64,000 bases of DNA from Erysipelotrichaceae bacterium (GTDB lineage Bacteria > Bacillota_I > Bacilli_A > Acholeplasmatales > Anaeroplasmataceae), in contig SVAZ01000001.1 of the NCBI GenBank assembly GCA_015059145.1, positions 1-64,000 on the forward strand, written 5' to 3'. A program made the translations under genes and the position numbers. This document shows, piece after piece, positions 11,685-14,876 of this stretch. The notes under the pieces were generated by a model, which searched no databases, was not told the origin of the DNA, and saw only the letters and a list, made by a program, of their open reading frames with translations. How positions within the stretch are numbered: position 1 is the first letter of the stretch; each line of letters opens with the position of its first letter.

Positions 11685-11776
11685 AATTGATTCCTCATAT
11701 CCAAACTTATAGTTAAATTATACTATATTTTAAATATCATATAAACTATTATTTATAAATTTTGTTTAAAAATAAA

Positions 11777-11796
11777 AGCCTGTAAATCTACAGGCT
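11777..11796 (-). terminator. Terminator after the kinase gene
   Basis: AGCCTGTA...TACAGGCT stem, T-rich tail on the minus strand. Confidence 0.65.
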
Positions 11797-13150
11797 AAAA
11801 AGATCCATTAAGTCCTAGGTATAGTAGTAATATACCTAATACACAAATTATAATAGAGAATAACAAGCTCTTAAATCTTTGCTTACGGAAAATAACTACC
11901 AAGCTTAATAATCCAAAATATATTACCATACAAATGATGGCCATAGGAATATATGCATTCTTAAATAGCTCAAACGGCCATATTAATTCAAATATATTTA
12001 TTTTCTTAATTAGCCACGTAATACCAAATGCTAACAAAGGTACTATAGACAATAGGGCTCTTGTTATTGTAATACCCTTATGTATTTTCATCTTTAAAGG
12101 TAGTGGCTGATTTGGTCTCACATCATAGCCATCCTGCTTATCCTTTATACGCTTTTCAAATTTATTTCTTTTAGCTAAAGCACAATAAGGACATTTCTTT
12201 AGCTTCTTAAAATAAGTATGTGGATGCTCCTTACATTCTCTAAAGCCTTTTCTTTTAAGCTTTAATAAAGCCTTCTTATATTGCAACGCTGTAGGCCTTT
12301 TCTTATCTAAGCTAAATGATTTAACAAATAGCTTTCTTAGGCTCTTAGGAATTTCATTTTTTAAAATACTAAAAATAGGCATCTCATACTTTTTATCAGA
12401 AAGTGGACAAGCATAAGCCTCTAAGCCTTCAAACTCACCACTTTTATTCATATATGCATTACACACAATCAATTGATATAGATGTGCAGCAAGTGCATAA
12501 TAATCTGTATTTTTAGAGAATTCAGCAAGAGTGTTATTCGCATTTACAGCAAACATTGTTTCAATGGCTTGAAACTCTGGGCGCGCCTTACCCTTCATAT
12601 ATTTTTTGAAGCAGAATGAATCTACATCAATTATATATACCTCACCATTATCGCCAACTAAAATATTACTAGAATTAAAATCACCTATAACATAGCCTGC
12701 ACTGTGAACCTCATACACTCTATCACACAGGCTTATTGCTAAATCTATAGATGTTCTAACATCAAATATTCTTAAATTATAATCGTAATCACTCTTACAG
12801 TAATCAAAGAATGTTCTATGCTTTGGAGCCTCATACATTATAAAACCCTCAAATGAACCATTTTGATATACTAAATCAACTGGAAAAAATATATGCTGAT
12901 TAATTTCATTTACTCTCTTATTCTTTCTTAAATCAGCAAACATATCGGCAAGCTTACGCTTTTTAATCATAACCTCTGTCATTTCCTTTTTAGTGTGTGC
13001 CTCATAAATTTTAACTCTTAGCTTAGCACCTGCATAAAAAGGATTGTCATATCTTACAACCTTGTAAACCTTACCCTCTCCACCGCATTTAGGGTCTTCT
13101 AACGAAATTTCAATATTATATTTGTTACTGTCATAAAATATTGGATTAAT
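11795..13150 (-). CDS. Protein kinase-like protein (TerY-P triad type) with zinc ribbon and C-terminal TM helices; probable AUU start
   Basis: ORF track starts at 12982, but the in-frame upstream sequence translates to MNPIFYDSNKYNIEISLEDPKCGGEGKVYKVVRYDNPFYAGAKLRVKIYEAHTKKE (G-loop GGEGKVYKV, K in RVKIY). Downstream: GDFNSSNIL catalytic loop, IIDVDSF, zinc ribbon CKEHPHTYFKKLKKCPYC. SD GGGAGGGG upstream of the ATT at 13150. Confidence 0.75.
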   Translation of the reverse strand: MNPIFYDSNKYNIEISLEDPKCGGEGKVYKVVRYDNPFYAGAKLRVKIYEAHTKKEMTEVMIKKRKLADMFADLRKNKRVNEINQHIFFPVDLVYQNGSFEGFIMYEAPKHRTFFDYCKSDYDYNLRIFDVRTSIDLAISLCDRVYEVHSAGYVIGDFNSSNILVGDNGEVYIIDVDSFCFKKYMKGKARPEFQAIETMFAVNANNTLAEFSKNTDYYALAAHLYQLIVCNAYMNKSGEFEGLEAYACPLSDKKYEMPIFSILKNEIPKSLRKLFVKSFSLDKKRPTALQYKKALLKLKRKGFRECKEHPHTYFKKLKKCPYCALAKRNKFEKRIKDKQDGYDVRPNQPLPLKMKIHKGITITRALLSIVPLLAFGITWLIKKINIFELIWPFELFKNAYIPMAIICMVIYFGLLSLVVIFRKQRFKSLLFSIIICVLGILLLYLGLNGSF

Positions 13151-13170
13151 AAGAATCCCCTCCCTGCTTA

Positions 13171-14019
13171 TTATTTTGATTGATCGTTATATAGTAAGCT
13201 ATTCTTCTCCTCTATTATTTCATCCCAGTTAGGTGGAGTGTAATAATCATCACTCATCCTAAGAGGTATAATAGAATCATCATAAATTACCGAAACGGTA
13301 ATATCATCGTTTATTGCATTATTATTAGATAAGAAATCAAAGACCTGATTCTTATACATTTCTAATAATTCATCACTCAAATTCTTTTCACTCAAATTCA
13401 TTAAAAGCTCAGCTAGCCTAACATGAATGCCTATAGGAAAGCATTTATACACCCCTATAGCAAGCTGATCAAAAACTCCATCCGTTGCCATTAATACACT
13501 ACACATCGGAGCTTCAACCTTAACAAATTCCCAAAAATCCTTTAATCTAAATGGAATAACTGAGATTCCATCCTCACCCTTTTGAGGGCTTGTAATAATG
13601 TGATATTTACCATCATAGTCAAGAGCTAATATTCCACCGTCTCCACTATGACCATAATATATATGATTATTATAGTAAATAACACAATCTAGTGTAGTAT
13701 CATATTCAAGCTCATTTCCACCCTTTTTCTTAATAAAGGTATTTAGCTTATCTAATGAATACGAATAGGCTTCACTTATTCTTAGTAATATTTCTCTTTC
13801 ATCTACATCATGCTTTTTATACCAGCTATCTAAATATTCTATAACATTTTCTACAGCCATTTTAGAAGCAACCTCTGAGTGAATCGCGCTACCTACGCCA
13901 TCAGCAATACATGATATACACATGTCCTTAACAAAAATGGTGTCACTATAATCCTGACAATTTACGCCATGCCTTATATGTGACCTACCCACTTTTGAAG
14001 AAAAATAATTCCTTATCAT
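13171..14019 (-). CDS. PP2C-family serine/threonine phosphatase
   Basis: CISCIADGVGSAIHSEVAS, YGHSGDGGI, MATDGVFD metal-binding motifs; ATGA overlap with the upstream VWA gene. Confidence 0.85.
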   Translation of the reverse strand: MIRNYFSSKVGRSHIRHGVNCQDYSDTIFVKDMCISCIADGVGSAIHSEVASKMAVENVIEYLDSWYKKHDVDEREILLRISEAYSYSLDKLNTFIKKKGGNELEYDTTLDCVIYYNNHIYYGHSGDGGILALDYDGKYHIITSPQKGEDGISVIPFRLKDFWEFVKVEAPMCSVLMATDGVFDQLAIGVYKCFPIGIHVRLAELLMNLSEKNLSDELLEMYKNQVFDFLSNNNAINDDITVSVIYDDSIIPLRMSDDYYTPPNWDEIIEEKNSLLYNDQSK

Positions 14020-14792
14020 TCTATATCGTCAAACATCCAATCGTTTAAATCCTTAGCGTTAACAACCTTTACGGCCTCACATTCTAGGGATGGTAGCTTT
14101 GCATCAAATCCAACCTGACTATTTGATACAACCTGCATTGACTTACTAAGCCAATCAAAGAACCCATCAAATGTCTCATCATTTAAATGAATAATGCCTC
14201 GCTTTGTACTAAGCATTGATAAATAATATGCTGGATTTTCAGTACGAGTTTGAGGATTTACCTCCTTTAAATTGTCTCCAACAAAGAAGGTATATACATG
14301 GAACTTTCTCTGTCCATTATGCTTTTCCTTGTGCTTATCTAGTAGGGCCTTTGCTTCTCTCATCTTATGAACATCTGTTGGACAGCCATCTGTACATACT
14401 AAAATCATAGGCTTATATGCAGATATACCAAGCTGAGCATATTGATTTCTCTTAGCATTAACCATATCAATTGCCTTTAACATTGCTTCACCTAAGGACG
14501 TCAAACCCTCACAATTTAATTTAGGTGGCTTAACCTTACATATAGGTGCGAAATCCTGTACAACTCTAACCTTAGAATTGAATTCAATAATTGCTAAATC
14601 AACTGTATTTCTAGTTATTTCATCCTTAACAACATTTTCTAAAAATCTTGCAATACCTTTATTAAGAATATCCATTCTTCCAGACATTGAACCAGATGTA
14701 TCTAACAGTAAAATACAAGCTAAATGTGGAGTATTAACGCTTTGAGGCATTAAACCAACATTATCAAAATTAAACTTAAATTCCTGATCCAT
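14016..14792 (-). CDS. VWA-domain protein, TerY-like
   Basis: MIDAS motif LLLDTSGSMSGR, EGLTSLGEAM, VCTDGCPTD; start refined to MDQEFKF with GGGGGTGGT upstream. Confidence 0.85.
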   Translation of the reverse strand: MDQEFKFNFDNVGLMPQSVNTPHLACILLLDTSGSMSGRMDILNKGIARFLENVVKDEITRNTVDLAIIEFNSKVRVVQDFAPICKVKPPKLNCEGLTSLGEAMLKAIDMVNAKRNQYAQLGISAYKPMILVCTDGCPTDVHKMREAKALLDKHKEKHNGQRKFHVYTFFVGDNLKEVNPQTRTENPAYYLSMLSTKRGIIHLNDETFDGFFDWLSKSMQVVSNSQVGFDAKLPSLECEAVKVVNAKDLNDWMFDDIE

Positions 14793-14876
14793 AATACCAC
14801 CCCCAACTATATATACACAAACCAATTAATTTGATTATAGCACAAAAAGTAAAAGAGAAAAACATATAAAGCTAAT

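Follow-up and report, generated by a model that had tools for sequence, protein, structure and literature searches.

The TerY-P triad, as described by Anantharaman et al. (2012) and cited in PMC11090510, combines a TerY-like VWA protein, a PP2C phosphatase and a Ser/Thr kinase that carries a C-terminal zinc ribbon. Initiation at AUU is likewise a known start type, found in infC and in cvfC1 of S. aureus, and other rare starts are used by ccpN and by Streptomyces sigR. In S. aureus, cvfC1 (AUU) and ccpN (AUA) have extended Shine-Dalgarno (SD) sequences and yield about 10% of the output of AUG (PMC13009471). The GTC start of sigR is repressed by IF3 and keeps the sigma factor from exceeding its antagonist (PMC5472188). 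A rare start can also be limited to a strain lineage, as in NCTC 8325 derivatives of S. aureus, where citZ begins with AUA and gives low output (PMC13009471). Among annotated genes AUG-to-AUU switches are very rare, with one in 61,358 reconstructed (PMC5622118).

Here we describe a kinase gene in the genome of an Erysipelotrichaceae bacterium (GCA_015059145.1), within a 64,000-nt stretch of contig SVAZ01000001.1 (positions 1 to 64,000; hereafter the window). That the start of this kinase has been mis-called is well supported, and its sequence and predicted fold indicate that it is probably AUU-initiated.

A TerY-P-type operon upstream of tmk

On the minus strand of the window, adjacent and co-oriented genes for a VWA protein, a PP2C phosphatase and a kinase form a TerY-P-type operon (Table 1). 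The TerY-like VWA gene matches PF13519 (4.4e-7) and PF00092 (3.9e-6), each above the cut-off, and has a MIDAS-like DTSGS, while the PP2C-like phosphatase gene matches PF13672 at 1.8e-26. The kinase scores below the cut-off of Pfam Pkinase (19.4 of 31.7 bits); it is recognizable as a kinase with a C-terminal zinc ribbon by its invariant kinase motifs, by fold matches (E 1e-10) and by C306, H311, C320 and C323, which are common to triad kinases. The VWA-PP2C-kinase order recurs in same-class genomes (L006, L007 and L009) and in plasmids from Sinorhizobium, Rhodococcus and Sphingomonas, L046 being one of these loci. These domain matches, the gene order and the zinc-ribbon ligands bear out the earlier assignment of the kinase to a TerY-P-like triad.

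In its order and domain content, in the ribbon ligands past the kinase domain and in its tight spacing, the window operon is like the described triads. It is unlike them in that the kinase starts with AUU rather than ATG or GTG, has a 20-nt gap and a strong SD of its own where an ATGA overlap is usual, and bears hydrophobic helices at its C-terminus. It also differs in its surroundings: no effector module or restriction gene neighbours the triad, which is flanked by mfd and tmk, and PADLOC returned weak kinase matches only on the window.

At the upstream end of the operon, the mechanical ORF list begins the VWA gene at a TTG with a poor SD (−1.5), a less likely start than the ATG given in Table 1. 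The putative promoter, TGCTATAAT, was noticed by eye and is not in the output of the promoter scan, which requires a −35. At the other end, the terminator scan found one hairpin where 1.0 was expected by chance, although its position is apt.

Among 55 genomes of the family, the triad kinase occurs in this genome only; the only other match is very weak and extends over 82 residues in a different protein. No close ortholog of the kinase was found in the 55 family genomes, in about 880 genomes overall (relatives, class and phylum), or among viral contigs, phages and plasmids, and a scan of genome contigs gave kinase homologs of up to about 31% identity only. Within the genus, the tmk-holB pair that follows the operon here is retained, while the 1.5 kb before tmk lacks the triad; the two genus genomes that were read upstream of tmk have different, unrelated genes there. 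The uniqueness of the triad in the family, together with this variable content, therefore suggests that the operon was probably acquired as a cassette, at a site whose content varies.

The segment upstream of tmk (window 11685-14876) resembles a variable insertion site, occupied in this genome by the triad, in L170 by a tRNA pseudouridine synthase-like gene among others, and in L169 by a corrinoid/methionine-synthase-like gene. Related kinases also occur in other arrangements. An Anaerolineales MAG (L108, 3300-5723 and 7061-8140) has three such kinase genes in a row, two of which share their N-terminal sequence and upstream DNA. L124 (1526-2704) has a triad whose phosphatase and kinase genes are separated by a TPR-repeat gene. 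In L010 (421-3453), where there is no triad, a larger protein has a related kinase domain in its C-terminal half and is followed by a MORN-repeat-like gene.

Table 1. Features of the operon in the window (all on the minus strand; SD values are SD:anti-SD energies in kcal/mol)
Feature	Position	Strand	Remarks
Extended −10-like TGCTATAAT	14834..14842	−	upstream of VWA gene; probable operon promoter
VWA (TerY-like) gene	14016..14792	−	ATG 14792 (SD −13.1), favoured over TTG 14825
PP2C-type phosphatase	13171..14019	−	its ATG overlaps the VWA stop (ATGA)
Shine-Dalgarno GGGAGGGG	13157..13164	−	GGAGG core 8 nt before ATT
Proposed AUU initiation codon	13148..13150	−	SD, homolog start position
Kinase CDS re-annotated from ATT 13150, 451 aa	11795..13150	−	C-terminal hydrophobic helices after kinase domain and zinc ribbon
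GGEG of glycine-rich ATP-binding loop, residues 23-26	13073..13084	−	alignment
Beta-3 lysine K47 (of RVKIY)	13010..13012	−	invariant in 41 sequences
First canonical start ATG in kinase frame	12980..12982	−	rejected: within helix alpha-C, no SD (−2.0)
Catalytic loop IGDFN, residues 155-159	12674..12688	−	G156, D157, N159 invariant
Zinc-ribbon ligands C306, H311, C320, C323	12182..12235	−	invariant in 41 sequences
Terminator-like hairpin and T tract	11777..11796	−	directly 3' of kinase; probable operon end

The kinase frame upstream of its first ATG

Bounded upstream by a TAA at 13187-13189, the kinase frame runs open from 13186 to its stop at 11795. Its first ATG, GTG or TTG is ATG 12982, which 188 nt (12983-13170) separate from the phosphatase stop. 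Upstream, the frame translates as INPIFYDSNKYNIEISLEDPKCGGEGKVYKVVRYDNPFYAGAKLRVKIYEAHTKKE, and the stretch between the phosphatase and ATG 12982 encodes INPIFYDSNKYNIEISLEDPKCGGEGKVYKV...RVKIY, with a glycine-rich loop and a beta-3 lysine. The first-pass annotation was correct in all of its coordinates, that is, in the 188-nt gap, in the frame being open to the TAA and in the absence of ATG, GTG or TTG before 12982.

When the window kinase was aligned with 40 homologs, G24, E25 and K47 proved invariant, and a profile from 37 homologs scored the full frame at 159.6 bits, compared with 145.9 bits from ATG12982 (a gain of 13.7 bits). An AlphaFold2 model built from the alignment predicts beta 1 (12-23), beta 2 (26-34) and beta 3 (44-49) of the N-lobe, followed by alpha-C (54-76), with a mean pLDDT of 90-95 over residues 1-50. 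It places M57, the residue encoded by ATG12982, inside alpha-C, and Foldseek matches it to solved kinase domains at about 1e-10. The invariant residues, the gain in profile score and the confidently modelled N-lobe argue that the upstream stretch is coding. Initiation at ATG12982 would take away an essential portion of the kinase domain, both the GGEG loop and the lysine of beta 3 included, and the earlier claim that this start strips the protein of its ATP-binding loop thus agrees with both the alignment (G24, E25, K47) and the predicted fold.

A kinase that starts at ATG 12982 or at ATG 12970, as a truncated protein that is regulatory or dead, is accordingly hard to credit. These are the first canonical codons of the frame, and ATG12970 follows a moderate SD (−7.8), but the product would have none of beta 1-3, the G-loop or the invariant lysine, the frame upstream is conserved protein sequence, and no homolog uses such a start.

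Evidence for the start at ATT 13150

We placed the start of 63 homologous kinases, which is ATG in 52 and GTG in 11. In 59 of them it precedes the GEG of the loop by 20-24 codons, in all 63 by 18-27, and in none is it downstream of the loop. The ATT of the window kinase is 23 codons before GEG, the distance at which ATG is found in the same-class kinases L006-L009. The search for homolog starts admitted only ATG, GTG and TTG and found one in place in every member of this set; four more frames without a placed start (L002-L004 and L010) represent other kinase architectures and stand outside it. By this search, AUU or another non-canonical start occurs in 0 of 63 distant homologs, and the non-AUG start, whose conservation in orthologs had been put forward as a check, is not conserved: every homolog with a placed start uses ATG or GTG. 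Apparent non-canonical starts in L123 and L126 (both CTG) and in L124 were rejected, as each has a GTG in place. The spacing to the preceding gene differs as well, with the kinase start overlapping the phosphatase stop by 4 nt (ATGA) in 26 of 40 triads and ATT 13150 beginning 20 nt past that stop.

The strong SD that the first-pass annotation had placed about 8 nt before ATT 13150 was confirmed, with an SD:anti-SD energy of −12.4 kcal/mol, as against −2.0 at ATG12982. ATT 13156 was rejected as a start, the SD being too close to it (−4.7). An SD as strong as −12.4 precedes 25 of 219 genes, and only 3 of the 3973 internal ATT codons in these genes reach that value. In a survey of 268 kb of this genome, taken as stretches, only infC and the window kinase combine a strong SD and ATT without a plausible canonical start. 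The SD+ATTAA pattern as such occurs at the control rate, with 9 matches in the genome and 10 in its reversed control. Of the 9, only those of infC and the kinase mark gene starts that lack a well-placed canonical codon; the remaining matches are inside genes, in short frames or beside an in-frame ATG. Since the pattern is not enriched, we put the weight on the match with the start position of the homologs and on the absent canonical start. One other survey candidate, an ATT at C22:170813, was dismissed as an ordinary start, since an ATG stands in frame three codons before it.

In the same genome, infC (G000 C9:45837; L050, L197) reads AGGAGGTGTTTCGT-ATT-AAC, that is, AGGAGG, 8 nt and ATTAAC, and has no well-placed canonical start. 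The kinase resembles this gene, and the infC genes of E. coli and Bacilli with their AUU, AUA or AUC starts, in its AUU, its strong SD and the GGAGG 8 nt before ATTAA; it is unlike infC, which is autoregulated by its own product (IF3), in having no such loop in itself. Where the infC start of a relative could be read (26 loci within L141-L167), the best site is ATT (17), ATA (6) or ATC (3), nearly always after a strong SD; in one further relative, not counted in the 26, the locus is cut at a contig end. Gene callers limited to ATG, GTG and TTG can therefore be expected to mis-start infC throughout this order. The earlier statement that AUU starts are rare, with infC as the established case, holds for infC, which begins with AUU in this genome too, but the codon is less confined than this implied, given cvfC1 (PMC13009471).

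On the position of the homolog starts, the SD, the predicted fold and the evident AUU of infC in the same sequence context, added to the open frame and the absent canonical start, ATT13150 appears by far the best start, as had been proposed. We consider it likely that the kinase is initiated at this AUU by means of its strong SD, as a protein of 451 residues with a complete N-lobe, and that the AUU probably keeps output below the level of an AUG. Its membership among AUU-start genes is provisional. An ATG, GTG or TTG that would give the full domain is absent, the strong SD is properly spaced, and the start is not conserved in the distant homologs.

A programmed −1 frameshift from the phosphatase, which had been offered as an alternative and would make a phosphatase-kinase fusion, can draw on the 16-nt overlap of the two frames (13171-13186) and on the phosphatase end TCA AAA TAA TAA, whose lysine codon could slip by −1. 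However, there is no proper slippery heptamer, only AAAA, RNA structure around the kinase start is nothing beyond chance (z 0.03), and in all homologs with a placed start the kinase begins separately at this same place; for these reasons we regard the frameshift as very improbable. It would also leave the SD unexplained.

An error in the consensus or assembly, with ATG (or GTG or TTG) as the true codon, seems quite unlikely to us. Single-base consensus errors are rare in short-read assemblies, and annotation bias conceals AUU starts. On the other hand, this is a draft genome of 34 contigs, one changed base would give a canonical start, and the rarity of reconstructed AUG-to-AUU switches (PMC5622118) points the same way. 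A recent ATG-to-ATT mutation in the strain would have left the gene hypomorphic or decaying, and its AUU without a regulatory role. The ATG or GTG of all homologs with a placed start, the accessory nature of the cassette and the precedent of citZ (PMC13009471) fit such a history, but the kinase is otherwise intact, as are the phosphatase and VWA genes, the strong SD is correctly spaced, and a 20-nt gap stands where most triads have the ATGA overlap. We therefore think a recent mutation unlikely, while giving it some weight.

A possible role for the AUU codon

If the kinase does start at AUU 13150, we can present a rough proposal for its expression. 30S subunits, perhaps ones freshly set free by termination of the phosphatase 20 nt before, would be held at the AUU by the strong SD and would initiate there with fMet, the kinase beginning fMet-Asn-Pro. 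By analogy with the AUU and AUA starts of S. aureus and with sigR, this would hold the kinase at a low level compared with its phosphatase. The usual 4-nt overlap would couple phosphatase and kinase; in the window, its place is taken by a gap and a weak codon with a strong SD.

Like cvfC1 and ccpN, the kinase combines a non-canonical start with an extended SD in a regulatory gene of a low-GC Gram-positive bacterium; the S. aureus starts, however, are conserved across species and proven by ribosome profiling and reporters (PMC13009471), whereas the AUU of the kinase is a candidate start that its homologs do not share. With sigR it would share a place in stress signalling, an antagonist encoded alongside and a rare start that may set the ratio of the two, although codon, phylum and protein are different and the case of sigR is proven by experiment. 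It is conceivable, if doubtful, that the AUU is a selected throttle in the manner of the sigR GTC, in which initiation sensitive to IF3, together with termination at the phosphatase stop, would fix a low kinase-to-phosphatase ratio and tie the TerY-P stress switch to the condition of the initiation machinery.

Gene callers that admit only ATG, GTG and TTG make this kinase look dead and N-terminally truncated, and comparison with the starts of its homologs restores the full protein. The kinase is one more candidate on the short list of bacterial AUU starts besides infC, and its signalling operon is one in which the ratio between antagonists is plausibly important.
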